A stretch of DNA of 36,051 nt, taken from Candidatus Dormiibacterota bacterium (GTDB taxonomy: Bacteria; Chloroflexota; Dormibacteria; Aeolococcales; Aeolococcaceae). The notes beneath the pieces were generated by a model. The model was not told the DNA's origin. It worked only from the letters and a program-made list of their open reading frames with translations, and searched no databases. This document shows, piece after piece, positions 5,126-22,753 of this stretch. The stretch is from positions 3,926 to 39,976 of the forward strand of contig PNBE01000205.1 of NCBI GenBank assembly GCA_003135895.1. The letters are read 5' to 3'. The position numbers and the translations under genes are program-made. Positions within the stretch are counted from its first letter, which is position 1; every line of letters starts with the position of its first letter.

Positions 5126-6157
5126 GTGGACTTCAGCCTGTTTCTCGACCTCAGGCCGCGTCAGGGCGCTCCCATGACGTCCGAGGATTTCGAACAGGCT
5201 GTGCAGCTGGTCCGAGCGGCCGAACGGCTTGGGTTCCACGGGGTCTGGACGAGCGAACAGCACGGCGTCGATGACGGATACCTCCCTGCGCAGCTGCCGG
5301 TGCTCGCCGCGTTTGCCCGGGAGACCACGACGCTGCGGCTCGGGACCGGTGTCATCCTCCTCCCGCTGACGCACCCACGTCACGTCGTCGAGGAGGCCTG
5401 CGTGGTCGATGTCATCTCGAATGGCCGGCTCACGCTTGGGCTGGGGGCGGGAAACTACCCGAACGAGTTCCGCATTTTCGGCGTCGACCCCGCGGATCGG
5501 CGTCGGCTCATGGAGGATGGGGTCACCTTCATCAAGGCAGGCCTGTCTGGAGGGATCTTGCCGGATGGCTCGTGGGTGAACATCCCGCCGGTGCAGCGGC
5601 CAATTCCGCTGGTGCTGGGCGGTCTTGTTGCGCCGGCAATCGACCGCGCGGTGCGGCTGGCGGACGGACACTTCGCCTATTCATTCAGCAACCCGGAGCA
5701 GACCTTGGCAGAGCTGTATGGAGAGCAGATCCGGCCTGCGCTGGATCGGCATGACCGCTCGCCCGATGGGTTCCGACTCCTGTTCGCATCGGTCCTCTGG
5801 CAGTCGGACTCGGCTGAAAGTGAATGGAGAGATGTCATCGGGCCGGCCTTCGCCTACCAGCAGCGCAAGTACGCGGAATGGGAGGAGAGCGCGGCGACCG
5901 CCGGCGGCTACGCGTTCGCCACCGACCTTGACCAGTCGCGCCGCGAGCTGTTCGTCGGACCGCCGGACCAACTGGCTGAGCGCCTGGTTTCGTTGCGCGA
6001 TCGCTATCCGTTTGACGAGGTCGTGTTCTGGGCCCGACTTCCGGGCGTACCGTTCTCCCTCGCCATGGAGCATCTCGAACGTCTGGCTTCCGGGTTGTTG
6101 CCAATGGTTCGAGAGGCGTCCCCGGTGCGCGTTGGAGACTACAGTGCTGGCTCATGA
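5126..6157 (+). CDS. LLM-class flavin-dependent oxidoreductase (luciferase-like)
   Basis: A 343-residue bacterial-luciferase-fold protein, the usual length for the family. Typical stretches are RAAERLGFHGVWTSEQH near the N terminus, TLRLGTGVILLPLTHP (the strand-loop lining the flavin pocket), SNGRLTLGLGAGNYP and PIPLVLGG. Members use reduced FMN or F420 to oxygenate or oxidise small organic substrates; which cofactor applies here cannot be told. The GTG start at 5126 is preceded by GGAG at good spacing. The gene opens the catabolic operon, and its last codons overlap the Rieske gene, whose GTG lies at 6144. No flavin reductase is encoded nearby, so reduced flavin would come from elsewhere. 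A monooxygenase acting on an N-alkyl or heterocyclic substrate is the reasonable inference. Confidence 0.85.
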   Translation: MDFSLFLDLRPRQGAPMTSEDFEQAVQLVRAAERLGFHGVWTSEQHGVDDGYLPAQLPVLAAFARETTTLRLGTGVILLPLTHPRHVVEEACVVDVISNGRLTLGLGAGNYPNEFRIFGVDPADRRRLMEDGVTFIKAGLSGGILPDGSWVNIPPVQRPIPLVLGGLVAPAIDRAVRLADGHFAYSFSNPEQTLAELYGEQIRPALDRHDRSPDGFRLLFASVLWQSDSAESEWRDVIGPAFAYQQRKYAEWEESAATAGGYAFATDLDQSRRELFVGPPDQLAERLVSLRDRYPFDEVVFWARLPGVPFSLAMEHLERLASGLLPMVREASPVRVGDYSAGS

Positions 6158-7235
6158 AGCGGAGATGCTGCAACGTCTATGGTTCCCGGTCGCCCGGCTA
6201 CAAGACCTGGAGTCCGACCGCCCCGTGGGAGGCGCCCTCCTGGGCAAGCGGGTTGTGGTGTATCGAAGCTCGGCTGGTGTCATCGTCGCCCTGGATCGCT
6301 GCCCGCACCGCGGAGCGCGGCTCTCGCTGGGACGCATGTCGGAGGGGACGCTCGAGTGTGCGTACCACGGGTGGCGATGGGGTCACGACGGCGCATGCGC
6401 GTTGGTGCCGTCGCAACCCGAAGTCCATTCCAATGCGACCCTCGAACTGCTCCCGGTACAGGAGCGTTTTGGTTTGGTCTGGACCAGCCTCGAAGCGACT
6501 CTCACGACTCCGCCCTCGATCCCCGAGATGGAGCACGACACCGGCGGTGGATGGGAGGTCGAGCTCGGCGAGTGGTTCGACGTCGGCTGCGGACTCAGGA
6601 GCATCACCGAGAACTTTCGTGATTCGAGTCACTTCGCCTTCGTCCATCGCGCGGCATTTGGCGACGTGAATCCAGCCATGGGCGCCTACACAGTGCATGC
6701 GGAAGGACGGCGGCTGTCGTGGGAGATTGCACTCACCTTCGGGTCGCCGTGGTCAGTTCGGGACGGCGACGATGGGCAGGCCCCCAAGTATCGGTTTGGC
6801 GAGTCGTCGGATAACGGGCCCGGCACTGACGCACCGGCGGAGATGCTCCTGAAGTACCGGTTTGAGATGCCGGCCCTCTCCTACGTCTACACCGAGCACG
6901 AGGGCGGCGGACGGCGGTTGGTCTGCCAGGCGGCAGCTCCCACGGGGCTTGACGGACGCTCCTGCCGCGTCTTCTTCTTCGTTGCCGCCAACAGCGAATT
7001 TCGACGCCAGAACGGCCCGCTGTCCGCTCAGGTCGAGCTGGAGGCGCGGATCTTCGCTGAAGACGTTCCCATCGTCGAGAGCCTCGACCCGCCTGACGCC
7101 CCGCTGGAACTCCAGGGCCAGGCACACGTCCGAGCTGACCGCTATTCGATCGCGTATCGAAAGCTGTATGAGGAAATGCTCAACGAATTCAGGTCCTCTC
7201 GCCAACACCAGCCGGCCGGTGCGGATTGGAAATGA
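6144..7235 (+). CDS. Rieske non-heme iron oxygenase, oxygenase component
   Basis: A 363-residue oxygenase of the vanillate O-demethylase / phenylpropionate-dioxygenase-like group. The Rieske 2Fe-2S ligands are C53-x-H55 (RCPHRGA) and C72-x2-H75 (CAYHGW), 16 residues apart. The mononuclear iron site is D160-x2-H163-x4-H168 (DSSHFAFVH), with the third ligand probably D307 in AEDVPIVE. Family members demethylate or hydroxylate aromatic, N-methyl or heterocyclic substrates using electrons from a reductase. I chose the GTG at 6144 because GGAG lies 6 nt upstream and it couples to the previous gene; the ATG at 6165 has GGAG directly abutting it. No ferredoxin or reductase gene is present in the window, so the electron donor must be elsewhere. 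Confidence 0.9.
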   Translation: MLAHEAEMLQRLWFPVARLQDLESDRPVGGALLGKRVVVYRSSAGVIVALDRCPHRGARLSLGRMSEGTLECAYHGWRWGHDGACALVPSQPEVHSNATLELLPVQERFGLVWTSLEATLTTPPSIPEMEHDTGGGWEVELGEWFDVGCGLRSITENFRDSSHFAFVHRAAFGDVNPAMGAYTVHAEGRRLSWEIALTFGSPWSVRDGDDGQAPKYRFGESSDNGPGTDAPAEMLLKYRFEMPALSYVYTEHEGGGRRLVCQAAAPTGLDGRSCRVFFFVAANSEFRRQNGPLSAQVELEARIFAEDVPIVESLDPPDAPLELQGQAHVRADRYSIAYRKLYEEMLNEFRSSRQHQPAGADWK

Positions 7236-7245
7236 GGCGCGAGTC

Positions 7246-8037
7246 ATGAGTGCAGTCAGGCATGGCGGGCGTCTCGCTGACAAGGTCGCGGTGATCACCG
7301 GCGCGACCTCGGGCCTCGGCTGGGCCGGCGCAGTGCGCTTTGCCGAGGAAGGCGCGAAAGTCGTTGCGGCGTCGAGGCGCACCGCTGAGGGAGCCGAGCT
7401 CGTTCACGCGATCGAAGCGGCCGGCGGCGAGGCTGTCTTCGTCAAATGCGACGTGGCCGATCCGAGTGATGTCGAGCGACTGATCGCCAGTGCCGAAGCG
7501 AGGTTCGGCTTGGTGAATGTCCTGTATCACAGTGCCGGCGTCATGCCCACCGGAACGGCACCGGAAACGAGCGAGGCGGACTGGCGGCAGGCCATCGACG
7601 TCAACCTCGGAGGCGCGTTCTGGCTGGCGAAGTTCGGGATTCCGGCTCTGGAACGCGCGGGAGGCGGCTCGATCATCCTGACCGCGTCGGAACTCGGGCT
7701 TGTCGGCGCCCGCAGTATGGCGGCGTATTGCGCTGCCAAAGGTGGGGTGGTCAACCTCGTGCGCGCGCTCGCGGTCGACTGCGGACCGCTCGGCATCCGT
7801 GTCAATTCCCTGTGCCCCGGTCCGATCGACACGCCGATGCTCCGCGGCTGGTTCGAGGCCGCGTCTGATCGCGCCGCGGCTGAGCACGTCCAGACCGATC
7901 CGCTACCGCTGGGCCGCGTCGGTCGGCCCGGTGAGATCGCCGATGCTGCGGTGCACCTCGCGTCCGATGCTTCGAGCTACATGACCGGCTCGGTCATGGT
8001 GGTCGACGGTGGTGCCACGGCCTGGTACGGGTTGTGA
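7246..8037 (+). CDS. Classical SDR oxidoreductase
   Basis: A 263-residue short-chain dehydrogenase. The nucleotide motif is TGATSGLG (about residues 18-25), the structural Asn is N120 in DVNLGG, and the active site holds S148 (ILTASEL), Y161 and K165 (YCAAK). The C-terminal VVDGGATAWYG is typical. The usual NNAG is HSAG here. It would oxidise a secondary alcohol or reduce a carbonyl with NAD(P)H. The ATG at 7246 is 10 bp after the Rieske stop, with GAGG upstream. Its position right after two oxygenases suggests that it oxidises the alcohol they create. A second active SDR with the same YCAAKGG active-site stretch occurs further down the operon. Confidence 0.9.
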   Translation: MSAVRHGGRLADKVAVITGATSGLGWAGAVRFAEEGAKVVAASRRTAEGAELVHAIEAAGGEAVFVKCDVADPSDVERLIASAEARFGLVNVLYHSAGVMPTGTAPETSEADWRQAIDVNLGGAFWLAKFGIPALERAGGGSIILTASELGLVGARSMAAYCAAKGGVVNLVRALAVDCGPLGIRVNSLCPGPIDTPMLRGWFEAASDRAAAEHVQTDPLPLGRVGRPGEIADAAVHLASDASSYMTGSVMVVDGGATAWYGL

Positions 8038-8049
8038 GGTGGGTCGTGC

Positions 8050-8856
8050 ATGACTGATGCTGGAATGGGCGATCGCATGCCGGCGGACGCACCCCTGCTG
8101 CTCGAGACCCTCACGTCCCCCGACGTTGCCAAGCTCATCCGCGACCAAGTACCGCTCGTGCTTCCCGTCGGAGCGATCGAGCAGCACGGACCGCATCTGC
8201 CGCTCGGCACCGACGGGTTCATCCCCTACGAAGTCGCGAAGCGTGTGGCTGCGGGCCGTCGCCTCATCGTTGCGCCCCCCATGTTCTTCGGGGCGTACTC
8301 GCGACCGAGGACGGGCGGCGGGAGGCACTTTCCCGGATCGGTCGGCCTCCCCGGGCGGGTCCTCGAGAGCGTCGTCGGGACACTCCTCGCCGACTGGTTC
8401 CGCCAGGGCTTCCGGAACCTCGTTGTGCTGAACGGCCACTTCGAGAATGCGTGGACTCTCCTCGAGGCGATCGAGCAGGGCACGGAGCGATCCAGCCCGG
8501 ACCAGAAGGCGCTGTTGATCCACTGGTGGGACCAGGTGAGTCCCGACGACATCCGCCGGATATTCGGTGAGTCGTTCCCGGGATGGGAGGCCGAGCACGC
8601 CTCGATCACAGAGACGTCGATGATGGAGTACATGCGGCCGGATCTCGTCAGAACCAACCTGAAAGCTGACGGTGGCGCCCAACGGATGACCACGTACGAC
8701 ATCTTCCCCGCGCCCGCCGACATCCTCTGGCCGAACGGCATCGGCTACAGCGCCCTTCCCGCCTCGCCCGAGATCGGTGAGCAGCTGGTCAGCGTGCTGG
8801 TGCGCAACATCGGGCGCATTCTCGATGAGGAGTTTCCGGGGGCCGCAGGCGCGTGA
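8050..8856 (+). CDS. Creatininase (creatinine amidohydrolase) family, catalytically complete
   Basis: A 268-residue protein, the usual creatininase length. The binuclear metal site is complete: E44 and H46 (AIEQHGPH), D55 (LGTD), H130 and E132 (NGHFEN). The residues that in Pseudomonas creatininase shape catalysis (Trp154, Trp174, His178) also have counterparts in W160, W179 and H183 (GWEAEH), and TETSMM and YDIFP match that enzyme's C-terminal half. Creatininase reversibly opens the lactam of creatinine to creatine. A close relative acting on another cyclic amidine or amide is possible. It lies 12 bp after the SDR, and the next gene's GTG overlaps its TGA. Together with the downstream ureohydrolase and urease genes it suggests ring opening followed by urea release. 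No creatinase (M24 family) gene is visible. Confidence 0.85.
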   Translation: MTDAGMGDRMPADAPLLLETLTSPDVAKLIRDQVPLVLPVGAIEQHGPHLPLGTDGFIPYEVAKRVAAGRRLIVAPPMFFGAYSRPRTGGGRHFPGSVGLPGRVLESVVGTLLADWFRQGFRNLVVLNGHFENAWTLLEAIEQGTERSSPDQKALLIHWWDQVSPDDIRRIFGESFPGWEAEHASITETSMMEYMRPDLVRTNLKADGGAQRMTTYDIFPAPADILWPNGIGYSALPASPEIGEQLVSVLVRNIGRILDEEFPGAAGA

Positions 8857-9800
8857 GGATCTACTTCTGCTCCGACATCCACGCGTCGCGAAAGTGCTGG
8901 AAGAAGTTCCTCAACTCGTGGAAGTTCTACGAAGCCGACACCATCATCGTCGGCGGCGACATCACCGGAAAATTCGTCGTTCCGATCGTCGAGACACGCC
9001 CTGGCGATTACACGGCGACGTTCATGGGCGTGCAGCGCAAGGTCAACTCTCCGAAGGCACTCGAAGCACTCAAAGTCATGATCGCCGACTCCGGCCAGTA
9101 CGACTTCATCACGACGCCCGACGAGTACCGAACCTATCAAGGGGACCAGGCGAAGATCGACACACTGTTCCGCCGTCTGGTCGTCGAGCGGGCGCAGGAA
9201 TGGATGGCCGAGGCAGACATGAAGCTCCGCGGCACGGGCGTCCGGTGTTTCGTGTCTGGCGCCAACGACGATTTCTTCGAGATCGATGACGTGATCGCCT
9301 CCTCCGAGGTCATCGAGGATCCGAATGGGAAGGTCATCGAGCTCGAGGGGGGATTTGAATTGCTCGGCATGGGCTACGGGAATCCAACGCCGTGGGCATG
9401 CCCCCGAGACATCCCCGAGGACGCGCTGGCCGGTCGGATCGATGCCGCTGCCAAAGGTGTGCACGACTTGAGCCGGGCGATCTTCAGCTTGCATGTCCCG
9501 CCGCTCGGAAGCGGCCTCGATATCGCGCCCAAGCTCGACGACTACCTGCGGCCCCGCGTCGGCTCGGACGGGCTCGAAATGATCCCAGTCGGGAGCACCG
9601 CGACGCGTGACGCAATCATCAAATACAAACCTATAATCGGCCTGCACGGCCACATCCACGAGTCCAAGGGGATCAAGCAACTCGAGGGTGTGACGATCGC
9701 CAACCCGGGGAGCGAGTATGGCGAAGGGATACTCGACGGACTGCTTGTCGACGTAGACCCGCACAAAGGACTTCAGCGAGTAGAGCTGGTAGTGGGATAA
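8853..9800 (+). CDS. Calcineurin-like metallophosphoesterase
   Basis: A 315-residue protein with the ordered metal motifs of the family: D8-x-H10 (CSDIH), D36 (VGGDI), N138 in SGANDD, H214 (SLHVPP), and H267 and H269 (GHIHES), ending with IANPGS. The usual GNH(D/E) motif is replaced by G-A-N-D, so the metal-binding Asn stays while the catalytic His is Asp; some phosphodiesterase branches vary at this place. The insert between residues 40 and 125 is long. The GTG start overlaps the creatininase stop by 4 bp, so the two are translationally coupled. A phosphoesterase is unexpected in a hydrolytic nitrogen pathway. It might remove a phosphate from an intermediate, or act on a nucleotide or a non-phosphorylated amide. 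Confidence 0.8.
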   Translation: MRIYFCSDIHASRKCWKKFLNSWKFYEADTIIVGGDITGKFVVPIVETRPGDYTATFMGVQRKVNSPKALEALKVMIADSGQYDFITTPDEYRTYQGDQAKIDTLFRRLVVERAQEWMAEADMKLRGTGVRCFVSGANDDFFEIDDVIASSEVIEDPNGKVIELEGGFELLGMGYGNPTPWACPRDIPEDALAGRIDAAAKGVHDLSRAIFSLHVPPLGSGLDIAPKLDDYLRPRVGSDGLEMIPVGSTATRDAIIKYKPIIGLHGHIHESKGIKQLEGVTIANPGSEYGEGILDGLLVDVDPHKGLQRVELVVG

Positions 9801-9822
9801 GGAATTAGTAACGGAGGGCAGC

Positions 9823-11406
9823 ATGGCGACAGAGATGCCGACCGTCACGGGTGTCTTCACCCGAGCGAGTTCAGGGCTAGTCAGACAGGTCAGAACCCAG
9901 GACGTTGTCTTCTACGGCGTGTCCCAGATTGCGCTGTCGTACATCGTGTTCGTCGTCCTCGCATGGGGCTTGTACCCTGGGGCATCAATGCCGATCGCGG
10001 CGCTCATTGCGACGGTGGGCGGGCTGGCGATGGGTGTCTGCTACGCGATGTTCGCCACGCTCTATCCGCGCACGGGCGGCGAGTACGTGTACCTGTCGCG
10101 CACCCTGTCGCCGGTCGTCGGTTTTGTCGTGAGCTTCTCGTTCGCGTTCTGGGAGGCGTTCTACGCCGGCGTCAGCGGTGCGTTCCTCAGCCTGTACTCG
10201 ATCTCGCCGTTCCTGGCGGGACTTGGTCTTCAGATGAAGAGCCAGGCTTTGTTGAACGCGTCGACCTGGTTCAATCATGGCTGGGGCATTTTCCTCGGTG
10301 GCAGCGCCGCGATCGTGCTCGTCATCTGGCTCCAGATTCGTGGCGCCGGCGTGTATTTCCGGTGGCAACGGTGGGCGGCCTACGCAGCGTTCGCAAGCAT
10401 CGCTATCACCATCGTCGTGCTCCTGCTGGCGGCGACGGGTGCGCTCGACTTCAAGTCCAACTTCGACTCCATCGCCGGCGCCGGCTCCTACAACAAGATC
10501 GTGGCTCAAGGTGTGAAGGCGGGCTTGGCGCCATCAGCCCCGTTCAATCTTGGGAACACGATCAACTTCATGATCTGGCCGGCATTTTCGATCTGGTTCG
10601 CGGTCGCGTCGACCTCGTTCTCCGGCGAGATCAAGAATGTGCAGCGGAGTCAGCTGCTCGGTATCTCGGGTGCGGTGGTGCTCATGGGCATCGCCTTCAT
10701 CGCGCTGACGTGGCTCTATCAGGCAGCATTCGGGAGCAGCTTCCTCCTCACCACAGCGGTTCAGGGCGTTCCGGTGCAAGCACCGCCCTATGTTCCGTTC
10801 TTCACCGCCGTCGCAGGGGGCCAGCCGATACTGACGATCTTGATGAGCGTCTGGGTGGTGTTCATCGCGGTGTTCGTCATCGGCACCACGCTCATCTATG
10901 CGAGTCGAGCCACCCTCGCATGGAGCATCGACGGCGTCGCTCCTGAGTGGCTGGGCAACGTCAGCGAGCGGTATCACTCCCCGCACTACGCCCTTCTCGT
11001 GTGGGGGGTGGTTGCCGAGATCTTCCTCGCGCTGTTCGCGTTCACGACACTGCTCGGTCCGATTTCAGGATTCCTCGGGCTGGCCATATCGTTCATCGTC
11101 GTCAGCATCTGGGCGATCTTCTATCCCTTCGTGCGCAAGGTGCAGTTCGACAACTCCGCGATCGCGTGGCGGGTGGGTGGCTTTCCGCTCATGAGTCTGC
11201 TTGGGATCATCGCCACGATCATCGTGGGCTACGGCTTCTGGCGCCTTGCGGTTGACGGTTCGTTCTCGACGAATCTCGGCTTCGCGGACGGAGGGGCGGC
11301 GGTCGGAGTGATCTTTGCAGCGATCTGGTTCTTCGCCTTCAAGGCATATCGCAAGCGGCAGGGAGTCGACATCAACCGCCGCTACGCGGAAATCCCGATC
11401 GAGTAG
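9823..11406 (+). CDS. APC-superfamily amino acid/polyamine permease
   Basis: A 527-residue integral membrane protein with about 12-14 hydrophobic segments. A charged N-terminal tail is followed by helix 1 (VVFYGVSQIALSYIVFVVLA) and the family's second-helix region LYPRTGGEYVYLSRTL. That R-x-GGxYxY element is characteristic of APC amino acid permeases. It would import the substrate, probably an amino-acid-like or cationic guanidino compound, across the cytoplasmic membrane. The ATG at 9823 has a good GGAGGG ribosome site at 9813-9818. It sits in the middle of the catabolic operon, 22 bp after the phosphoesterase and 13 bp before the next gene, so it is probably the dedicated uptake system of the pathway. 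Confidence 0.85.
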   Translation: MATEMPTVTGVFTRASSGLVRQVRTQDVVFYGVSQIALSYIVFVVLAWGLYPGASMPIAALIATVGGLAMGVCYAMFATLYPRTGGEYVYLSRTLSPVVGFVVSFSFAFWEAFYAGVSGAFLSLYSISPFLAGLGLQMKSQALLNASTWFNHGWGIFLGGSAAIVLVIWLQIRGAGVYFRWQRWAAYAAFASIAITIVVLLLAATGALDFKSNFDSIAGAGSYNKIVAQGVKAGLAPSAPFNLGNTINFMIWPAFSIWFAVASTSFSGEIKNVQRSQLLGISGAVVLMGIAFIALTWLYQAAFGSSFLLTTAVQGVPVQAPPYVPFFTAVAGGQPILTILMSVWVVFIAVFVIGTTLIYASRATLAWSIDGVAPEWLGNVSERYHSPHYALLVWGVVAEIFLALFAFTTLLGPISGFLGLAISFIVVSIWAIFYPFVRKVQFDNSAIAWRVGGFPLMSLLGIIATIIVGYGFWRLAVDGSFSTNLGFADGGAAVGVIFAAIWFFAFKAYRKRQGVDINRRYAEIPIE

Positions 11407-11419
11407 GCGCCGCGTCGTA

Positions 11420-12052
11420 GTGATCGTTCTGGTCGCGGCGGCTGCGAACGAGGAGGTATCCCAACTCGCCGATGAGTTGGGCGGACCCGAAAGGGTCGTC
11501 CTCCTCACTTCGCAGCCGCCTCCGCGGCTCACCTCGGGCATTTCCATTCTCGACGTTGACCTCATGTCAGCCGTCGGGACATCCGAAGCCTGGCGGCTAC
11601 TCGAAGAGACGCACGGACCCGCCGATGCATTGGTGGTTGCCCCCGCTCCAGCGACGACCACTGGCACTCGCGTCGCCGACGTCAGCGATGCGTTCTGGTC
11701 GTCGGCGATGGCCGGCCTGACGGTTGCCATGCACGCTGCCCGTGCAGCCGTCGGACCGATGATGCGTCGAGGGCGTGGCAGGATCACGTTCGTCACGTGG
11801 CGTATCGACGATCCGGAGGGTCAGGTTCCGCTTGCTACCGTCTCCGGCGCGATCATCCAGCTGGCTCGAGCTCTGGCGACCGAGCTCGGGACGAGTGGAG
11901 TGACCGCGAACGCCATCTCTGTCGCACCTGGGCGGTTGGCATCAGTGGCCCCTGTGGTGCGCTTCCTCGGTTCGGCAGCATCTGGATATCTCACGGCGGA
12001 AGTGATTTCGGTCGGCGGGACGAAGGCTGCCTCCTCGTGGTGGAATGGATGA
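11420..12052 (+). CDS. Degenerate SDR-fold protein, probably catalytically inactive
   Basis: A 210-residue protein that keeps the later SDR framework: GRGRITFVT (strand E), ALATELGTSGVTANAISVAPG (helix F and strand F, residues 151-171) and a C-terminal VISVGGT. It has lost the catalytic and cofactor elements. The glycine-rich TGxxxGxG is replaced by AAAANEE, NNAG by VAPAPA, and the Tyr-x3-Lys pair by residues of ATVSGA. It is also about 40 residues shorter than its neighbours. The GTG at 11420 is the likely start. Its last codons overlap the active SDR gene by 4 bp (ATGA), so the two products are made together. Active/inactive SDR pairs that form heteromers are known (BbsCD of toluene degradation). 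A structural partner role is my inference. Confidence 0.75.
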   Translation: MIVLVAAAANEEVSQLADELGGPERVVLLTSQPPPRLTSGISILDVDLMSAVGTSEAWRLLEETHGPADALVVAPAPATTTGTRVADVSDAFWSSAMAGLTVAMHAARAAVGPMMRRGRGRITFVTWRIDDPEGQVPLATVSGAIIQLARALATELGTSGVTANAISVAPGRLASVAPVVRFLGSAASGYLTAEVISVGGTKAASSWWNG

Positions 12053-12816
12053 TGCGCGGCCTGACCGGTAAGGTGGCCTTGGTGACCGGCGCGGGTCAGG
12101 GGATCGGCGCCGCCATCGCCGCACGACTAGCCTCGGAAGGCTGCGTCATTGCCGTCAACTCGCTGCACCCAGAGAAGGCCGAAGCCACTGCGACCCGTCT
12201 CCGGGAGAATCAAGTGCGCGCCGAGGCCTTTCCGGCCGACGTCGCAGACCCCGACGCGGTGGACGCGATGGTGCGGGCCGTCGAGGAACGTCTCGGCGTC
12301 GTCAACATCCTCGTCAACAACGCCGCGGTCCTGGAGATGGCGCCCTTTGTTGACCTGGATCTCGGGGTCTGGGATCGGACGATTGCGGTCAACCTCACGG
12401 GGCCCTTTCTCTGTACACGGCGGGTGGTTTCCGGGATGCTCGACGCTCAGTGGGGGAGGATCGTCAACATGTCCTCGATCTGGGGCGTCATCGGTGCGAG
12501 GGGAGCAACAGCGTATTGCGCGGCGAAAGGAGGATTGATCGAGATGACACGAGCATTGGGGGCCGAGCTTGGTCCGGGTGGAGTTGCCGTCACCGCGGTC
12601 GCGCCAGGAGTCATCGACACTCCGCAGCTCGCCGCGGATGCGGGCTTCGCCGGTGTGACCCTGGATGAGATGAAAGCGCTGTATGCAGAAGACACTGTCG
12701 TTGGCCGTATCGGCACCACGGCGGAAATCGCCCACGCAGTGGCCTTTCTGGCTTCCGAGGATGGCATGGGGCTGTGCGGCCAGGTGCTGCCGGTCACCGG
12801 AGGGCGGTCAGAGTGA
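12049..12816 (+). CDS. Classical SDR oxidoreductase
   Basis: A 255-residue short-chain dehydrogenase with all motifs: TGAGQGIG (residues 13-20), NNAA at 90-93, N115 (AVNLTG), S143 (NMSSIW), Y156 and K160 (YCAAK), and the C-terminal VTGG. The sequence is close to the FabG/glucose-dehydrogenase type. It should oxidise a hydroxyl group of a pathway intermediate with NAD(P)+. The start ATG (12049) overlaps the stop of the degenerate SDR, and its TGA overlaps the GTG of the ureohydrolase, so three genes are linked by 4-bp overlaps. A second ATG directly follows the first, and either could be used. Confidence 0.9.
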   Translation: MMRGLTGKVALVTGAGQGIGAAIAARLASEGCVIAVNSLHPEKAEATATRLRENQVRAEAFPADVADPDAVDAMVRAVEERLGVVNILVNNAAVLEMAPFVDLDLGVWDRTIAVNLTGPFLCTRRVVSGMLDAQWGRIVNMSSIWGVIGARGATAYCAAKGGLIEMTRALGAELGPGGVAVTAVAPGVIDTPQLAADAGFAGVTLDEMKALYAEDTVVGRIGTTAEIAHAVAFLASEDGMGLCGQVLPVTGGRSE

Positions 12817-13844
12817 GCGATCAGACACCCGTCGGCGACGCGCAACCCAAGCCCTCCCCCCGGTATGTGCCCGCTGACTCGCTGCAGAGTCCGAGATTCA
12901 CAGGTATCCCAACCTTTGCCCGTCTGCCCAACGTCCGCACCACCGAGGACGTCGACCTCGCAATTATCGGGGTGCCCTTCGACACGGGCGTGTCGTTCCG
13001 CGCCGGCGGACGTTTCGGACCGAACGCGATCCGCGCTGCCTCCGTCCTGATCAGAGGGCACAACCCCGTGCTTGAGGTGCACCCGTTCCGGGTCCTCTCG
13101 TGCGTCGATTACGGCGACGTCGCCATCGTGCCGGGTTACATCGAGCGCAGTTACGAGATCATCGAGCGCGAGGTCACTCCGGTCGTCAATGCGGGTGTGA
13201 TTCCGCTCCTGCTCGGTGGGGATCACTCCGTCACACTGCCACACCTGCGCGCGACCCGCTCGGTCGGACCGGTGGCCGTCATCGACTTCGATTCGCACAC
13301 CGACGCCTGGGACTCGTTCTTCGGCGAGAAGTACAACCACGGCACCTGGATGCGCCGGGCGATCGAGGAGGGGCTGGTCGACGTGGACCACTCGATCGAG
13401 GTCGGCCTGCGCGGGTCGGTGTACGGCCCTGACGATTGGCCGGTCTTGAAACGAGAGCTGGGCCTCGAATACATCCCCACGCACGAGGTCCTCACCCAGA
13501 GCCCCGACGTGACCATCGAGGCGATCCGCCGCCGAGTCGGAGGCCGTCCAACCTTCATCAGCTTCGATATCGACGTCGTGGATCCCGCGTTCGCACCAGG
13601 AACCGGCACACCCGAAGCGGGGGGCCTCTCGTCGTTTCAGGCTCTCCAATTGATCCGGGGATTGCGGGGCATCGATTTCGTCGGGTTCGACGTCGTCGAG
13701 GTCATACCCAGCTACGACTCGGGTGAGGTGACCGCGATACTCGCCGCGAACCTCGCGTTCGAGATGATCAGTCTCTCTGCATTGAGGCGACTCGAAGGAG
13801 GAACTCGGACTCCTGCCCGCATCGTGTCCACGGAGCAAGCGTAA
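12813..13844 (+). CDS. Ureohydrolase 1, agmatinase/guanidinobutyrase-like
   Basis: A 343-residue arginase-superfamily enzyme that hydrolyses a guanidino group to an amine and urea with a binuclear Mn (or Ni) site. Ligands are H138 (GGDHS), D160, H162 and D164 (DFDSHTDAW; the family's usual Ala is Ser), D252 and D254 (SFDIDVVDP). The loop APGTGTPEAGG and the substrate segment with HGTWMRRAIEEG match the agmatinase / guanidinobutyrase branch (GbuA, SpeB) rather than true arginases. The GTG start overlaps the previous stop by 4 bp. The urease-like genes follow after 27 bp, so released urea could be used at once. Within the operon it is the natural next step after ring opening by the creatininase. 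The substrate is not determined by sequence. Confidence 0.9.
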   Translation: MSDQTPVGDAQPKPSPRYVPADSLQSPRFTGIPTFARLPNVRTTEDVDLAIIGVPFDTGVSFRAGGRFGPNAIRAASVLIRGHNPVLEVHPFRVLSCVDYGDVAIVPGYIERSYEIIEREVTPVVNAGVIPLLLGGDHSVTLPHLRATRSVGPVAVIDFDSHTDAWDSFFGEKYNHGTWMRRAIEEGLVDVDHSIEVGLRGSVYGPDDWPVLKRELGLEYIPTHEVLTQSPDVTIEAIRRRVGGRPTFISFDIDVVDPAFAPGTGTPEAGGLSSFQALQLIRGLRGIDFVGFDVVEVIPSYDSGEVTAILAANLAFEMISLSALRRLEGGTRTPARIVSTEQA

Positions 13845-13871
13845 GGTGCCGACCGGCGCGGCGCACTAGGT

Positions 13872-14441
13872 ATGTATGTGTCGGCCACGGAGCACGATCG
13901 TCTTCTGGTGTTTCTCGCCGCCGAACTCGCTCGCCGAACCCTGTCTCAGGGCGAGAAGCTCAGCGCTCCGGAGGCGATCGCTATCATCTGCGACGGCATG
14001 CACGCGGCAGCCCGATCGGGATCGACGTACGACGAAGTCGTCGCGACCGGCATGTCTGCACTGAGCAGTGACGACGTCCTCGAGGGCGTGCCCGCGCTGG
14101 TTGAAGAGGTACGGCTCGAGGTGCTGCTCGGCGATGGATCCCGACTGATCGTCCTGCGCGATCCACTTGGTCACGCGACACACCTCGGCACTCCAGGTAC
14201 CGTGACGATCAACGAGGGCCGGCGGCGCATCACCCTCGAGGTCACCAGTCATTCGCAGATGCCGATTCGGGTGGCGTCGCACTTCCCATTCTGGTTGTCG
14301 AATCGACGACTTTCCTTCGACCGCGGGGCAGCTCGCGGCTACCACCTCGACCTCGCCGCCGGGGCGTCGCTGCGCTGGCAACCCGGCCAAACTCGACGTG
14401 TCGCCCTCGTCGCGTACGCACGTCAAGCAAGCGTCGGATGA
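13872..14441 (+). CDS. ureAB: Urease gamma-beta fusion subunit (UreA-UreB type)
   Basis: A 189-residue fusion of the two small urease subunits. Residues 1-100 match UreA: SATEHDRLLVFLAAELA, then SAPEAIAIICD, then DDVLEGVPALVEEVRLE. Residues 105-189 match UreB: GTVTINEGRRRITLEV, MPIRVASHFPFW, LSFDRGAARGYHLDLAAG and WQPGQTRRVALVAY. The tail is shorter than usual UreB, which normally runs on through GFRGEVMGP. Fused gamma-beta subunits are known in Helicobacter ureases. The ATG at 13872 aligns with UreA N termini, although a GTG at 13878 has the better-placed AGG. The stop overlaps the alpha-subunit start by 4 bp. The product should form the scaffold around the catalytic subunit in the cytosol. 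Confidence 0.85.
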   Translation: MYVSATEHDRLLVFLAAELARRTLSQGEKLSAPEAIAIICDGMHAAARSGSTYDEVVATGMSALSSDDVLEGVPALVEEVRLEVLLGDGSRLIVLRDPLGHATHLGTPGTVTINEGRRRITLEVTSHSQMPIRVASHFPFWLSNRRLSFDRGAARGYHLDLAAGASLRWQPGQTRRVALVAYARQASVG

Positions 14442-16165
14442 GGATGTCGAAAGAGCGCTATCGAGCGCTCTACGGGCCGACCACTGACGATGTGATCCGG
14501 CTTGCGGATACGAACCTGAGCGTCGTGGTCGAGGCCGATGACGTTGGCTACGGCGACGAACCGATCTGGGGGTACGCGAAGAACATCCGCGCCGGCATGA
14601 CCCAGTACGACAAGGTCCCCAGCGCCAGTGAGCTCGACGTGGTCGTTGCCGGGGTTGTGGTTGTCGATCCCCTCCTGGGCATACGCAAGACGAACATTGG
14701 GATCAAGGACGGCAGAATCGTCGCGATTGGAAGGGCGGGGAGCCCAAGTATCAGCGATGGCGTTGACTTGGTCATCGGACCCCACACCATGCCCGTCATG
14801 GGGTACGGGTTGATCGCGACCCCCGGAGGCGTCGACAGCCACGTGCACCTCCTCACACCGCGCCTGATCCCCGTGGCGCTGTCCGCCGGAGTGACGACGT
14901 TGATCACAGGCGGGTTCGAGGAGCCCCCCTTTGCAATGTTGCAGACGCTTCGAGCACTCGAGGGGTGGCCTGTCAATATTGGTCTGCAGGCATGTGCTCG
15001 CACCACCAACCCAGAGGCACTCGTTGCGCTCCTGGAGGCGGGCGCAGTCGGCTTCAAGATTCACGAGGATTACGGCGCGACGCCCGAGATCATCGACGGC
15101 ACGCTGGCGATCGCCGACGTGCACGACGTCACTGTCTGCCTGCATACGGACGGGCTCAACGAGTCCTGCGAGCTCGAAGACACGGTGCGAGCCATCGCTG
15201 GTCGTGCTATTCATGCCTATCACGTCGAGGGCGCCGGTGGTGGGCACATCCCGAACCTGATGGAGATCGTCGCTGAGTCCAACGTGATCTGCTCCTCGAC
15301 AACGCCGACGCTGCCTTACGGCACCGCCGCGGCGCGAGAGCACCAGGACATGATCTTGCTGAGTCACAACGGGTCCGCTCAGTCCGAAGATGACCTCGCC
15401 GCTGCGCTGGAACGGATCCATCCGGCCACGATGGCTGCCGAGGGCCCCTTGCACGAGCTGGGAGCGATCAGCATCATCAACAGCGACTCGCAGGGGATGG
15501 GTCGAATCGGCGAGACCGTTCGACGAACCTGGCAACTTGCTCACGTCATGAAGACCTGGCGCGCGCAGCGCGAGGGTATCGGATGGCATGAGCCCGCCGC
15601 GGTAGCTCGCAGCGGACCCTCTGCGACGGCCGGCATTATCAGCCTGGATAACGACAATGAGCGGGTCCTCAGGTACCTCAGCAAGTACACCATCAATCCG
15701 GCCATCACACATGGAGTCGCCGCTGACGTGGGGACGCTGGCGACCGGGCGTCTGGCGGACATAGTGCTCTGGAAGCCAACCTATTTCGGGGTGCGTCCGG
15801 AACTGATTCTCAAGGGCGGCTATCCGGCGTGGGGTGCGCTCGGCGAAGGTAATGCCTCCGTCGAGCGCAGCGAGCCGGTGCAATACGGCAGCCACTGGGG
15901 AGGTATGGCGCCCAACTCACTCGCCACCACTTTTGTCTCGCGCGCTGCGCTCGACACAGGTATCGCCGCGGCGTTGGGCAGCCGCCGTACCCTGCGCACA
16001 CCTCACGGGAGCAGAGGCGTGACCCGGCGATCGATGGTGGGGAATGACTATGCTCCGAGCATCACGGTCGATCCGGTGAATGGGAGCGTGACTCTGGATG
16101 GAAGATTGCTGACCGCGACCCCGGTGGACGAGGTGCCGCTGAATCGCCGGTACTTCCTGGCATAG
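14438..16165 (+). CDS. ureC: Divergent urease alpha (catalytic) subunit
   Basis: A 575-residue protein, matching the usual UreC length. All metal ligands are present: H135 and H137 (DSHVHL), the carbamylated-lysine position K207 with H209 (GFKIHEDYGATP), H236 (CLHTDGLNES), H262 (YHVEGAGGGH) and D350 (NSDSQGMGR). The mobile flap differs. The normal C-H-H-L-D-P is S309-H310-N-G-S-A, so the flap Cys is Ser, while the general-acid His (H310) and the conserved Arg (R326) stay. The reaction is expected to be urea to ammonia and carbamate, but the altered flap allows another substrate. No ureD, E, F or G gene occurs in this window, although nickel insertion normally needs them. Helicobacter mustelae has an iron urease with fused small subunit and no adjacent accessory genes, a possible parallel. 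Confidence 0.9.
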   Translation: MRMSKERYRALYGPTTDDVIRLADTNLSVVVEADDVGYGDEPIWGYAKNIRAGMTQYDKVPSASELDVVVAGVVVVDPLLGIRKTNIGIKDGRIVAIGRAGSPSISDGVDLVIGPHTMPVMGYGLIATPGGVDSHVHLLTPRLIPVALSAGVTTLITGGFEEPPFAMLQTLRALEGWPVNIGLQACARTTNPEALVALLEAGAVGFKIHEDYGATPEIIDGTLAIADVHDVTVCLHTDGLNESCELEDTVRAIAGRAIHAYHVEGAGGGHIPNLMEIVAESNVICSSTTPTLPYGTAAAREHQDMILLSHNGSAQSEDDLAAALERIHPATMAAEGPLHELGAISIINSDSQGMGRIGETVRRTWQLAHVMKTWRAQREGIGWHEPAAVARSGPSATAGIISLDNDNERVLRYLSKYTINPAITHGVAADVGTLATGRLADIVLWKPTYFGVRPELILKGGYPAWGALGEGNASVERSEPVQYGSHWGGMAPNSLATTFVSRAALDTGIAAALGSRRTLRTPHGSRGVTRRSMVGNDYAPSITVDPVNGSVTLDGRLLTATPVDEVPLNRRYFLA

Positions 16166-16765
16166 ATGAGCGAGCGCATGCTGATCCCGGCTCGTGGGGC
16201 GGTTGCCGTGCGGGTGGCTGCCGATCAGCGCTTCCGGGTGATCGACCTCGAGGGCACCCAGGTGGTTGATCTCTTTGCCTTTGTCGACGGCGATGTCGGT
16301 GAATACGCGAGTGCTGAGCACACGCGGGTGTTTGTGAAGCGGCTCTTTCCGAAGTCCGGCGAGCCGTTTGTCACGAACCGCCGCCGCCCGCTTCTGCTGC
16401 TTGAGGAGGATTCGTCGCCCGGTGTCCACGACATGCTCTGCGCTGCGTGTGATCCGACGAGATACGCGCTCCTGGGGCACACGGGCTGGCACGCCTCGTG
16501 CCAGGAGAACCTCGAGCGCACGATGGACGAGCTTGGCTATGCCGGTGTTGAGATTCCCCAGCCGATCAACCTGTTCATGAACGTCTCGCGCGACGCCGAC
16601 GACGCGCTGAACTTTGCCCCGGCGCTGACGAGAGCAGGCGACTCCGTCACGCTTCGGGCGCTGCTGCCGTCCATCGTTGTCGCGTCCGCGTGTCCGATGG
16701 ATCTGAACGTCATCAACGGGGCGGGTCCGACCGATGCGGCTGTCGAGGTTCTGGATCCGGCGTAG
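16166..16765 (+). CDS. DUF1989 (urea carboxylase-associated / carboxyguanidine deiminase-like) protein
   Basis: A 199-residue member of the DUF1989 family. Diagnostic stretches are DLEGTQVVDLFAF, the metal-site candidates H88, C92 and C95 (HDMLCAACDP), H109 and C112 (HASCQENL), INLFMNV at 135-140 and VASACPMDLN with C176. Characterised relatives, UAAP1/UAAP2 (CgdA/CgdB), deiminate carboxyguanidine and sit beside guanidine/urea carboxylases. Here the gene instead follows urease alpha with no gap: TAG is directly followed by ATG. It could act on a carboxylated or carbamoylated nitrogen intermediate, or help the urease-like enzyme. The subunit is single, whereas CgdAB is a pair. Its last 53 bp overlap the 3' end of the convergent amidase gene. 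Confidence 0.85.
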   Translation: MSERMLIPARGAVAVRVAADQRFRVIDLEGTQVVDLFAFVDGDVGEYASAEHTRVFVKRLFPKSGEPFVTNRRRPLLLLEEDSSPGVHDMLCAACDPTRYALLGHTGWHASCQENLERTMDELGYAGVEIPQPINLFMNVSRDADDALNFAPALTRAGDSVTLRALLPSIVVASACPMDLNVINGAGPTDAAVEVLDPA

Positions 16766-18182
16766 CTGTGGGCGGACGTCTGCCAGCCCATGGGCGACTT
16801 TCCTCGAGTTGCGCGGCGAGTCGCATCAGCGTGCGGTCTGCCCCGAACTGGCCGACGAACTGCGTCCCGATCGGCAGGTCGTCCTCGTTCCAGAACAAGG
16901 GAGTCGACATCGCGGGTTGCCCGGTGACATTCGCGACGGTCGTGAATGGACAGAACTCGCTGTCGCGTTGATATCCGCGCAACGGATCGTCACTGGAAGA
17001 CGCAATGAACCCGATCGGTGGGGGTGGCGTGGCCACCGTGGGCGTCAGCCAGACGTCGTGACGGTCGAAGAAGCCGGCGACCGTCCTGCTCATGCGCTGG
17101 AGTTCATGAACCGCCTCGAGATATTCAGTGGCGGCGATGCGCCGCCCCTTCTCGTAGAGAGCCCACGTGAGGATCTCGACATCGTGAGCTTGCGGAGCGC
17201 GATGGAGCAGTCCTCCCCAGTAGTCGATCATCCACGCGACGCCGGCGATCCAGACCGTGTCGAAGGCGACGGCATACGGCTCTGGGTCGAGTGCGGGCGC
17301 CGCTTCTACAACTTCGTGTCCAAGCTCCTCGCACAAGTGCGCAGCGTCGATCATCGCTCGCGCGCAGGTCGGGTCCACAGGTCCCCCGGTAGGAGACGCA
17401 GCGCTGAAGGCGATCCGGAGCCTTCCCGGAGATCGGTCCAGGTCAGCGGCTGACGACGAATCCTCGGCCGCCGGCCAGTACGGATCGCCGGCGACCGTGC
17501 CAGACGTAGCCTCGAGCAACCGAGCGCTGTCCCGGACGGACCGCGTGAGAACGTGCTCGGCCCACAATCCCGAGAACAGATCTCCATGTTCGGGTGCCAT
17601 CGAGATCCGTGCGCGAGAAGGCTTGAACCCGAAAACGCCGCAGCACGACGCCGGTATCCGGATTGATCCGCCGCCGTCGTTACCGTGGGCCATCGGGACC
17701 AAGCCGGCCGCGACTGCTGCAGCCGACCCTCCGCTTGATCCACCTGTCGATCGATTGAGATCCCAGGGATTTCGGGTCGGGCCGAAACGCACTGGCTCGG
17801 TTGTTCCCAGGATGCCGAACTCTGGGGTGTTGGTCTTACCAACGATAACCAGTCCGGCGTGCTTGTACCGCCGTACGAGCTCGGTATCTCGCCGTGCGAT
17901 GAACTCCCCGAGAAACGCCGATCCCGCGGTGAGGCGGCTTCCTGCTTCGCCGGCGAGCAGGTCCTTGAGGAGGAAGGGCACGCCCGCAAAAGGACCATCG
18001 GGCAGTTGTGCGCCGGCTAGGGCAAGAGCATTCTCGTACAACGGAGTGATGACGGCGTTGATGACGGGGTTCAACAACTCGATGCGGTGGATCGCGGCCG
18101 TCACCAACTCGACTGGGCTGACATTCCCGCGAGCGACCATCTCGGCCTGATCGGTCGCGTCCAGCCACGCCAACTCGTTCAC
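16713..18182 (-). CDS. Amidase-signature family hydrolase (1)
   Basis: A 489-residue amidase-signature enzyme. The Ser-cisSer-Lys triad is K73 (FLLKDLL), S149 in GGSSGGSAAAVAAG and nucleophile S172 in DGGGSIR. The C-terminal part (WLTPTVATPPPP, FTTVANVTGQPAMSTP, PIGTQFVG) is typical of AmiC/6-aminohexanoate-cyclic-dimer-hydrolase-like members. It cleaves a carboxamide to acid and ammonia or amine. The GTG at 18182 is chosen because a TATAGT -10 box sits 7 nt upstream, implying leaderless translation; GTG codons at 18188 and 18191 are alternatives, and the frame runs open to 18380. The Pro/Arg-rich tail extends 53 bp into the convergent DUF1989 gene. There is no allophanate-hydrolase C-terminal domain. 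Confidence 0.88.
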   Translation of the reverse strand: MNELAWLDATDQAEMVARGNVSPVELVTAAIHRIELLNPVINAVITPLYENALALAGAQLPDGPFAGVPFLLKDLLAGEAGSRLTAGSAFLGEFIARRDTELVRRYKHAGLVIVGKTNTPEFGILGTTEPVRFGPTRNPWDLNRSTGGSSGGSAAAVAAGLVPMAHGNDGGGSIRIPASCCGVFGFKPSRARISMAPEHGDLFSGLWAEHVLTRSVRDSARLLEATSGTVAGDPYWPAAEDSSSAADLDRSPGRLRIAFSAASPTGGPVDPTCARAMIDAAHLCEELGHEVVEAAPALDPEPYAVAFDTVWIAGVAWMIDYWGGLLHRAPQAHDVEILTWALYEKGRRIAATEYLEAVHELQRMSRTVAGFFDRHDVWLTPTVATPPPPIGFIASSSDDPLRGYQRDSEFCPFTTVANVTGQPAMSTPLFWNEDDLPIGTQFVGQFGADRTLMRLAAQLEESRPWAGRRPPTATPDPEPRQPHRSDPPR

Positions 18183-18189
18183 GACCACC

Positions 18190-18195
18190 ACTATA
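18190..18195 (-). promoter_or_regulatory. Candidate -10 box (TATAGT) for the amidase gene, leaderless layout
   Basis: Read on the minus strand, TATAGT is followed by 7 nt and the GTG of the amidase. The -35 region (TTCGAC, 17 bp upstream) is poor. No ribosome site precedes the GTG, which fits a leaderless mRNA. Confidence 0.45.
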
Positions 18196-18329
18196 TGTCC
18201 GCTGAGGCTGAGGTCGAAGGTGATGCCCTTCCGCGCAATCGGAGACAGCCTCGTCGGCGTGTTGCGAGTGGGCGTTTTCTGGATCGCCCCACGACCTGGC
18301 GCACCCTGCACTGCCCCCGCCTGAGCGCC

Positions 18330-18335
18330 GATAAT
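18330..18335 (+). promoter_or_regulatory. Candidate -10 box (GATAAT) for ureohydrolase 2
   Basis: GATAAT lies about 48 nt upstream of the ATG at 18383, in the short divergent region shared with the amidase gene. An 18-bp spacer leads to CTGCAC, a weak -35. The gene itself has a strong GGAGGT ribosome site at 18371-18376, 6 nt before the ATG. Confidence 0.3.
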
Positions 18336-18382
18336 ATGCATTCCTTCCTTAGCGGAAGCGACCGACCACAGGAGGTACATCC

Positions 18383-19387
18383 ATGGCGACGAAGCACCCC
18401 GACATGTTCACCGCCGCCGCCGCCTCGACGGGTCATGGAGGGCTGTTGCACAGTGGTCCCGGGACGTTCCTGAAGTCCCCCGGCGTGGCATGTGAGACAA
18501 AGGCGATTCAGGAACACGGCGCCAAGGCAGTCTTCCTGGGAGTGCCCTTCGACCAGGCGACCATCTATCGTTCCGGATCCAGCCTCGCACCGAAGATGAT
18601 GCGGTTCGTCTCAGACCAATACCTCCCCTACCTCGGTGACTTCGACATCAATCTGTTCGACGAGTTCGGCCTGGTCGATGCCGGCGACGTGCCGATCATC
18701 CCGGCCAACGCTGAGCGCTCACGGAACAACATCGAGGAGTGTGTCGGCAATATCCTCGATGCCGGTGCGATGCCCATCTGCATCGGCGGCGATCACTCGC
18801 TCCCCATCCCGATCGGGCAAGCCCTGTCCAAGCGCATCGGCCCCGACAAGAAGTTCGGCTACATCCACTTCGACGCGCACATCGATTGCCAGCCGGACTT
18901 CCACGGCGAGCCGTACACAAACTGGTCGCATATGGCGCGGATGGTCGAGCTGCCCAACATCGACGCGAAGAACATGGCCGTCGTGGGCGTGCGTGGCGCA
19001 ACCAACCCTCCCGAGCAGTGGCGATTCATCGAAGAGAATGGGATCAATCTCTACCGCATGCGGGAGATTCGCCGCCGCGGAGTCGAGGATGTCGTGGCAG
19101 ATGCGCTGGCCAAAGTGACAGACGGCGTCGACGCCTTCTACGTCAGTTGGGATTCCGACGTTGTGGACGCGGCCTTCCTTCCCGGCACCGATGGGCCCGA
19201 GGTTGGCGGCATGACGTCATGGGAGATCCTCAAGGCATGCGAGATGGTCGGCGCGAAGAAACCTGCAGTGATGGACATAGTCGAGTTGATTCCCGCCTAT
19301 GATCACCCAAGCTACATTTCGCACCGGCTGGCCTGCTATTTCATCTTCCATCTGCTCGGCGGCATGGCCACTGGAGGCGTGAGCTAG
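18383..19387 (+). CDS. Ureohydrolase 2, divergent branch
   Basis: A 334-residue arginase-superfamily enzyme. Metal ligands are intact: H138 (GGDHS), D164, H166 and D168 (HFDAHIDC), D257 and D259 (SWDSDVVD). The loop that usually reads DPAFAPGTGTPE is DAAFLPGTDGPE, and the substrate segment after the first Asp cluster (PYTNWSHMARM) lacks the HGT of agmatinases. An N-terminal extension of about 45 residues (TGHGGLLHSGPGTFLKSPGV) precedes the fold. It should release urea from a guanidino compound, but neither agmatinase nor guanidinobutyrase can be assumed. Guanidine hydrolase and metformin hydrolase also belong to this superfamily and remain candidates. The start has the best ribosome site in the region. 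The nucleotidyltransferase-like gene follows after 64 bp. Confidence 0.88.
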   Translation: MATKHPDMFTAAAASTGHGGLLHSGPGTFLKSPGVACETKAIQEHGAKAVFLGVPFDQATIYRSGSSLAPKMMRFVSDQYLPYLGDFDINLFDEFGLVDAGDVPIIPANAERSRNNIEECVGNILDAGAMPICIGGDHSLPIPIGQALSKRIGPDKKFGYIHFDAHIDCQPDFHGEPYTNWSHMARMVELPNIDAKNMAVVGVRGATNPPEQWRFIEENGINLYRMREIRRRGVEDVVADALAKVTDGVDAFYVSWDSDVVDAAFLPGTDGPEVGGMTSWEILKACEMVGAKKPAVMDIVELIPAYDHPSYISHRLACYFIFHLLGGMATGGVS

Positions 19388-22748: not shown

Positions 22749-22753
22749 GTGCG

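Follow-up and report, generated by a model that had tools for sequence, protein, structure and literature searches.

What is broken down, and for which element, by a run of twelve genes in which two oxygenases, a creatininase, an arginase-fold ureohydrolase, a permease and a two-gene urease stand side by side is the question raised by a locus in Candidatus Dormiibacterota bacterium (assembly GCA_003135895.1, contig PNBE01000205.1, positions 3,926 to 39,976 of the forward strand). The whole of this 36,051-nucleotide stretch is hereafter termed the window; its source genome (G000) is a 3.6-Mb draft of 79% completeness, divided among 211 contigs. The reading favoured here, with moderate confidence, is that the cluster serves the scavenging of nitrogen from guanidino compounds and has been assembled from exchangeable modules. 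A first-pass annotation had already proposed a guanidino-compound function, and this is supported by the structural relatives and metal ligands of the ureohydrolase, by the active-site residues and equivalog match of the creatininase, and by a riboswitch-led sister operon in another genome. Such a general role in guanidino-nitrogen use is more secure than the narrower proposal that the substrate itself is a ring of the creatinine or glycocyamidine type, which is suggested because a creatininase and a ureohydrolase are paired in the run, and which must be held as possible but doubtful.

The hydrolytic core and its setting

The nearest entries in the PDB to ureohydrolase 1 (UH1) are a 3-guanidinopropionase and a guanidinobutyrase (3nip, E 7e-82, and 3nio, E 9.3e-82). 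UH1 is 47% identical to GpuA and 45% identical to GbuA over the aligned parts, and the bit scores run from 278 for GbuA and GpuA to 229 for proclavaminate amidinohydrolase, 218 for the best agmatinase and 158 for 7esr. All six metal ligands of the arginase family are present, within the motifs GGDH, DxHxD and DxD. At the position of GpuA Tyr157 and GbuA Met161, which are specificity residues, UH1 has Phe, and its relatives in two further genomes (G128 and G070, described below) have Tyr. In alignments read by eye, the Thr and Trp positions of the guanidinase GdmH are occupied in UH1 by Ser and Thr.

The second hydrolase passes the creatininase equivalog TIGR04448 narrowly, by a margin of 1.6 bits (236.6 against a cut-off of 235), and, over the aligned part, has 36% identity with the enzyme of Pseudomonas (PDB 1j2t). 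Aligned to that structure it retains E34, H36, D45, H120, E122, W154, W174, E177, H178 and E183, the first five of which are the metal ligands, with Trp154 and Trp174 belonging to the creatinine pocket.

These two enzymes come together again in a genome of the same class (G070, locus L126), where a run on one strand has the order nucleotidyltransferase-like protein (NT), short-chain dehydrogenase 1 (SDR1), metallophosphoesterase (MPE), APC permease, UH1 and creatininase, at 42, 58, 52, 38, 51 and 39% identity respectively to the proteins of the window, followed by a metallo-beta-lactamase-fold gene. Directly before the NT gene, and on its strand, lies a guanidine-I riboswitch (8605-8704; 76.1 bits, cut-off 63). 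Since the NT frame at its longest would run into the riboswitch, the gene is taken to begin at a later start codon.

With regard to the run itself, the twelve tightly packed plus-strand genes described at first pass, with gaps of no more than 27 bp and several 4-bp overlaps, are confirmed by the coordinates. They extend from 5126 to 16765 with successive gaps of 7, 10, 12, -4, 22, 13, -4, -4, 27, -4 and 0 bp, four of the junctions thus being 4-bp overlaps; an alternative GTG start of the Rieske gene at 6144 would turn its 7-bp gap into an overlap with the LLM gene. On spacing only, the twelve genes are likely to form one transcript, and promoter-like and terminator-like sites between 4700 and 20400 are no commoner than in shuffled sequence. 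Pfam scans uphold the family names given earlier for all twelve genes. The extent of the set needs amendment: as described it stands from 5126 to 16765, and a related set (an amidase, ureohydrolase 2, UH2, and NT) runs on to 20243, because the same families recur beside UH1 in G128. The features are collected in Table 1. The LLM monooxygenase reaches no NCBIfam cut-off among the 25 families listed, the first Rossmann part of SDR2 is unmatched by Pfam, which gives that protein a remnant-like appearance, and the true start of the amidase probably lies inside its frame.

Table 1. Genes of the run and of its continuation, with window coordinates, strand and the evidence for each name
Feature	Coordinates	Strand	Evidence
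LLM-class flavin monooxygenase (bacterial luciferase family)	5126..6157	+	PF00296 Bac_luciferase, E 2.4e-47
Rieske oxygenase, VanA-type C-terminal domain (VanA_C)	6165..7235	+	PF00355, PF19112
SDR1, complete short-chain dehydrogenase	7246..8037	+	Pfam; homologue of 58% identity in the operon of G070
Creatininase-family amidohydrolase	8050..8856	+	PF02633; TIGR04448; PDB 1j2t, E 2.8e-43; active-site residues
Metallophosphoesterase (MPE)	8853..9800	+	PF12850 Metallophos_2; conserved motifs; neighbourhoods
APC-superfamily permease	9823..11406	+	PF13520; Pfam AA_permease
SDR2, degenerate short SDR	11420..12052	+	Best Pfam match covers residues 43-169 of 210
SDR3, complete short-chain dehydrogenase	12049..12816	+	Pfam
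Ureohydrolase 1 (UH1), guanidino-acid type	12813..13844	+	PF00491 Arginase, E 7.2e-86; PDB 3nip, 3nio
Urease gamma-beta fusion, orphan clade	13872..14441	+	PF00547 and PF00699 in one protein
Urease alpha-like protein, orphan clade	14438..16165	+	Urease_alpha and Amidohydro_1
Single DUF1989 protein	16166..16765	+	PF09347, E 1.8e-43; PDB 3oru
Amidase-signature enzyme	16713..18380	-	PF01425; convergent with DUF1989
Ureohydrolase 2 (UH2), metformin-hydrolase-like	18383..19387	+	PDB 8snf, 8ryi_C, 7esr; 61% homologue beside UH1 in G128
Nucleotidyltransferase-like protein (NT)	19452..20243	+	Weak NTP_transf_5; invariant Asp residues; co-occurrence with MPE

In the route that can be proposed from these families, the APC permease would import a guanidino compound, the LLM and Rieske oxygenases, together with the SDRs, would trim its substituents, and the creatininase would open a cyclic guanidine lactam to give a guanidino acid, which UH1 would then split into urea and an amino acid. 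The urease would cleave the urea, or a close relative of it, to ammonia, UH2 could handle disubstituted guanidines, and MPE with NT may be a module apart, regulatory or modifying in function and linked to APC permeases. As regards the trimming step, PMC12508155 describes, in another bacterium, removal of the N-substituent of methylguanidine by a dioxygenase of a different family.

The nearest PDB entries to UH2 are the metformin hydrolase subunits 8snf (E 2.8e-67) and 8ryi_C (E 1.7e-54), then 7esr (E 4.2e-50). PMC11410670 recognises guanidinases by a Thr at Pfam position 15 together with a Trp at position 223. Read by eye, the alignments show Ile and Gly at these marks in UH2, and with metformin hydrolase subunits as its nearest structures its assignment as a guanidinase was rejected. 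By analogy with DmgH, which was studied beside metformin hydrolase and which yields urea from dimethylguanidine (PMC11399263), UH2 may act on disubstituted guanidines. Likewise, the DUF1989 protein was considered as CgdA or CgdB and set aside, since it falls far below both cut-offs (UAAP1, 52.8 against 205.95 bits; UAAP2, 85.3 against 284.7 bits). A second, distant DUF1989 protein is encoded elsewhere in the same genome. The window holds a third arginase-fold gene (23686-24732, minus strand), the nearest PDB entry to which is the agmatinase 1wog. It is grouped with genes for an amidase, an Amidohydro_2-family member and a CoA transferase of type III (21180-22763, 22788-23840 and 24748-26046), and the window thus has three ureohydrolases inside 12 kb.

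The orphan urease and the permease module

The last step of the route as first annotated, namely cleavage of urea by an ordinary urease, is not supported: no maturation genes were found and flap residues are altered. The alpha protein (UreC) of the window scores 586.4 bits against the 680 of the urease-alpha equivalog TIGR01792 and passes a subfamily model only. It retains H134, H136, K217, H246, H272 and D360 (His, His, Lys, His, His, Asp), the urease metal ligands in K. aerogenes numbering; its flap Cys319 is replaced by Ser and its Ala363 by Gly. Because the six ligands are kept, the protein is probably, to judge by its sequence, an active metalloenzyme. The sole Rfam match in the window, 5_ureB_sRNA antisense to the alpha gene, is below its cut-off (35 against 40 bits) and was read as plain urease similarity.

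The accessory proteins UreG, UreD and UreF were searched for in 19 genomes: that of the window, G047, G195, G016, G025, G167 and 13 with UreC relatives of about 60% identity. In the window's own genome, at its 79% completeness, neither UreD nor UreF is matched, and UreG gives nothing over the cut-off, with one weak match (E 1.2e-4; 22.8 against 204.2 bits). All three are likewise unmatched in each of the 13 genomes of the 60% relatives, for which completeness is not given, and in G047 and G195; G016 and G167 have all three, and in G025 UreF is matched at the end of a contig. The relatives of about 60% identity come from metagenome-assembled genomes, mostly of Chloroflexi/Chloroflexota, with one from Limnocylindrales and one from Actinomycetota. 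At those loci with enough flanking DNA, gamma-beta and alpha form a two-gene unit beside smpB, a C-terminal protease, ftsX and prfB (names by eye).

The same division is apparent in a comparison of 46 UreC proteins, 23 from loci with UreG (22) or UreF (L014) nearby and 23 from loci without, six of the latter (L032, L039, L046, L061, L049 and L056) having been judged by flanking DNA alone. Among those with nearby accessory genes the flap Cys is found in 21 of 23 and Ala at position 363 in 22 of 23, the exceptions being L057 (Ala and Gly) and L063 (Ala at the flap); among those without, none of the 23 has the Cys and every one has Gly at 363. A caution attaches to L003, an accessory-free locus in G167, a genome with all three accessory genes and another urease. 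In a quick tree a clade of 19 rows, for which SH-aLRT support is 100%, includes the UreC of the window, and the 23 rows lacking UreG do not form one clade, in that L003, L049 and L056 lie on the canonical-urease side. Every row without UreG has all the metal ligands, the Lys among them, except L061, which was retained in the tree and in which Pro stands at the first metal His within a sequence of odd composition; this anomaly is probably a frame error. Omitted from the tree were L132, L016 and L015 (the same genes as L003, L133 and L134), L064 (metal ligands lost), L047 and L048 (fragments) and L001 and L002 (copies of the window and of L130), and L017, not retrieved as an intact protein, is absent. 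The omitted L064, from Chromobacterium aquaticum, is itself a UreC relative in which nearly all of the metal ligands have been lost.

Structural urease genes with an absent or incomplete accessory set are described for Bacillus subtilis and some cyanobacteria in PMC6737895. Helicobacter mustelae UreAB2 and B. subtilis are precedents for accessory-free ureases, and a urease of this sort is therefore not new in kind. Aligned to 3qga, however, UreB2 of H. mustelae keeps the flap Cys-His-His and the Ala, so the clade of the window is not simply the H. mustelae enzyme. Our tentative suggestion, held with rather less confidence than the guanidino function as a whole, is that the urease of the window is one of a distinct clade of two-gene ureases which would work without UreDEFG, by means of another metal or loading route, and that in this genome the enzyme has been recruited into a guanidino-nitrogen operon; its substrate might be a larger urea-like molecule, since the flap Cys has been lost and Gly stands in place of Ala363.

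The proposed degradation pathway does not account for MPE and the NT gene downstream, which are a separate, recurring module. The calcineurin-type motifs of MPE are conserved across 36 aligned rows. NT gives no Pfam match over the cut-off and a weak one to NTP_transf_5 (E 0.018), with D62 and D64 invariant and D113 near-invariant in 12 sequences. Both proteins occur in 65 of 201 genomes (the genome of the window and 200 relatives, searched with UreC, creatininase, MPE, NT, UH1 and DUF1989), MPE alone in 2 and NT alone in 5 (Fisher p 5e-44, uncorrected for relatedness), a count that leaves out one 42-residue MPE fragment in G057. NT lies within 12 kb of MPE at 76 of 102 MPE places, and a homologue of the APC permease, 24-56% identical, adjoins MPE in 26 of the 29 other MPE loci L097-L125. 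The recurrence of the module is seen among L097-L129, L137 and L143, and NT, MPE and APC stand together in the archaeon Halobellus; in a plasmid collection the MPE search found Thermomicrobium and Halobellus only.

A riboswitch was considered as a general feature of MPE loci and was rejected: 20 of the 29 loci L097-L125, with flanks of at most 1.5 kb, have no RNA-family match, and the module therefore does not look guanidine-specific. NT and MPE might, as a guess, serve as writer and eraser, whether on the APC permease or on its behalf. The module suggests that in many of these bacteria amino-acid-type permeases are under a control so far unrecognised.

Conservation and competing explanations

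The combination of genes is conserved in part. The whole order was found in no other genome, in the neighbourhoods inspected among the 201, and what recurs are its modules, in G070 and in G128. In the latter, from another family of the same phylum (L143), DUF1989 (62% identical), NT (37%) and amidase (34%) are on one strand, and diverging from these are UH1 (74%), UH2 (61%), an APC permease, two SDRs, MPE and a second APC permease. Of the 33 genomes with DUF1989, 6, that of the window included, have a UH1-type gene, among the best 54 UH1 places listed, whose start lies less than 3.4 kb from that of DUF1989. A Rieske gene, 33% identical, is near UH1 in G093. Creatininase and ureohydrolase genes adjoin in a Rhizobium plasmid, where they are annotated as creatininase and agmatinase, and are in one place in a Halomarina plasmid.

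Nearer to the window, the sister species G002 shares only positions 19212-20252 here, at 86% DNA identity (L139, G002:C11, 8280-9320); it has a frame-broken 3' end of UH2 and an intact NT, with the rest of the cluster absent, and the cluster is therefore variable within the genus. The same 86% identity of the UH2-NT end to a genome of the same genus led to rejection of a misassembled or foreign contig. The six other searched genomes of the genus contain no real UreC relative, the weak match in G002 (E 2.5e-6) apart, and only distant creatininase matches (E 1e-14 to 1e-17).

Guanidine-I riboswitches give a match of any strength in 15 of the 201 genomes and over the cut-off in 7, G070 having just the one. 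Two genomes of the window's own family have one directly before urease genes: G016 (L134, C196; locus 11715-11822, minus strand, 62.9 bits, just under the 63 required), where it leads ureA-B-C-F-G-D and then a ureohydrolase, and G025 (L158, C120; 2738-2846, minus strand, 66.6 bits). In G057 (L155, C29; 6397-6494, plus strand, 82.5 bits) one leads genes which by eye are permease, dihydropyrimidinase-like, racemase-like and M20-like, hinting at the breakdown of a heterocycle under guanidine control.

Several observations weigh against the guanidino reading, or against its creatinine-type form. UH1 also passes the agmatinase equivalog TIGR01230 (213.1 against 174.3 bits) and, at 303.3 against 302 bits, the cut-off of PRK02190, models which may be unable to separate agmatinases from guanidino-acid hydrolases; indeed, human AGMAT, annotated as an agmatinase, hydrolyses guanidino acids (PMC9772407). 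The same paper has this relative of GbuA failing to hydrolyse creatine and guanidinoacetate, and a creatine step by UH1 would therefore be a new activity. The creatininase departs from 1j2t in S78 to Thr, Y121 to Phe and D175 to Glu, and the pocket Trp residues are not fixed among its counterparts, one being Met in G070 and the other Ile in Rhizobium. UH2 fails both the Thr and the Trp mark of guanidinases. None of the six other searched genomes of the genus has the full gene order, and the pairing of creatininase with ureohydrolase is rare in plasmids (2 of the 725 records matching creatininase or UH1). The LLM and Rieske genes, with which no genome search was made, have no shown tie to the rest save for the Rieske gene of G093. 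Finally, a hidden guanidine riboswitch was sought in the window and none appeared up to E 1, nor was one found in the window's own genome under stricter filters.

It has to be asked whether some other nitrogen heterocycle or amide, such as a purine or pyrimidine product, a hydantoin or an agrochemical, is the substrate, with the creatininase opening a different lactam or amide and UH1 and the urease completing the last steps. The creatininase family is a varied one, matched in 77 of the 201 genomes, and the member in the window only just passes its model; LLM and Rieske oxygenases suit heterocycles; the UH1 homologue of G145 stands by genes which by eye are deacetylase-type, cytosine-permease-like and cytosine-deaminase-like; and the run of permease and amidohydrolase genes behind the riboswitch of G057 contains no UH1 match. 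Both Trp residues of the creatinine pocket are nevertheless kept in the window, and G070 places creatininase and UH1 together behind a guanidine sensor, such that we regard this alternative as unlikely, if one to be taken seriously.

Less probable again is a mosaic of independent nitrogen genes, joined by rearrangement and co-transcribed without forming one pathway. That the exact set is seen once only in the searched genomes, that the urease, the NT/MPE/APC module and the creatininase-UH1 pair are separate elsewhere, and that G002 retains just the broken end of UH2 and NT would all be expected of such a mosaic; several of the parts, however, recur together in different orders in two other genomes, and 4-bp overlaps bridge the proposed modules (UH1/SDR3 and creatininase/MPE). 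Genes for LLM, Rieske, SDR and aminotransferase proteins occur also in natural-product biosynthetic clusters, and the presence of the first three, with the relationship of UH1 to proclavaminate amidinohydrolase, could be taken to mean that a guanidino natural product is made here and that the hydrolases confer resistance or recycle it. Such a biosynthetic role is very improbable, since no carrier, synthetase or ligase is present among the 20 window proteins in the Pfam scan, and the core that recurs is a transporter with hydrolases. Nitrogen scavenging from guanidino compounds is accordingly retained as the preferred function.

Comparison with known systems

No relevant description of this combination of genes was found in the open-access literature. 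If the guanidino reading is true, creatinine-like guanidines would be degradable without an M24 creatinase, by way of an arginase-fold enzyme, and the known routes by which guanidino nitrogen is returned to ammonia would be widened; moreover, a whole clade of ureases with its own flap residues would become a new system for testing maturation and substrate.

The classical creatinine pathway consists of creatininase, M24 creatinase and sarcosine oxidase. The window has in common with it a creatininase with conserved metal ligands and tryptophans, and differs in that an arginase-fold enzyme takes the place of the creatinase, no M24 protein having been found by Pfam among the 20 window proteins to which that search was confined. 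A closer parallel is the guanidinase operon of comammox Nitrospira, a tested guanidine system of guanidine-I riboswitch, APC permease and guanidinase (PMC11410670). In both cases an APC permease is in a run with a ureohydrolase and urea would be passed to a urease, and the sister operon of G070 is also led by a guanidine-I riboswitch. Unlike the Nitrospira operon, the window has a UH1 of guanidino-acid type and a UH2 without the guanidinase Thr and Trp, adds creatininase, oxygenases, SDRs, DUF1989 and MPE, and is devoid of a riboswitch.

Of the individual enzymes, UH1 resembles GpuA and GbuA of P. aeruginosa in overall identity and in its six metal ligands, and differs from them in the Phe at the Tyr157/Met161 position. 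UH2 has the metformin hydrolase subunits as its nearest PDB relatives and shares with them Ile at the guanidinase Thr position, but it is one gene rather than the tandem pair of metformin hydrolase and dimethylguanidine hydrolase, and reaches only about 230 bits. The DUF1989 protein is of the family of the CgdAB carboxyguanidine deiminase, a DUF1989 pair, whereas the operon has a single such gene, far under the UAAP cut-offs. With the canonical nickel urease (UreABC with UreD, E, F and G) the window shares gamma, beta and alpha parts and the metal ligands, and differs in the lack of a UreD or UreF match and of UreG over the cut-off (UreE was not searched), in the lost flap Cys and in the change of Ala363 to Gly; the absence of the flap Cys and Ala distinguishes it from UreAB2 of H. 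mustelae. With the ureases of B. subtilis and some cyanobacteria it shares structural genes whose accessory set is missing or incomplete, and its clade has its own flap residues. The overall picture is of a cluster belonging to a known kind, the guanidino-nitrogen operon, the newest parts of which are the orphan urease clade and the NT/MPE/APC module.

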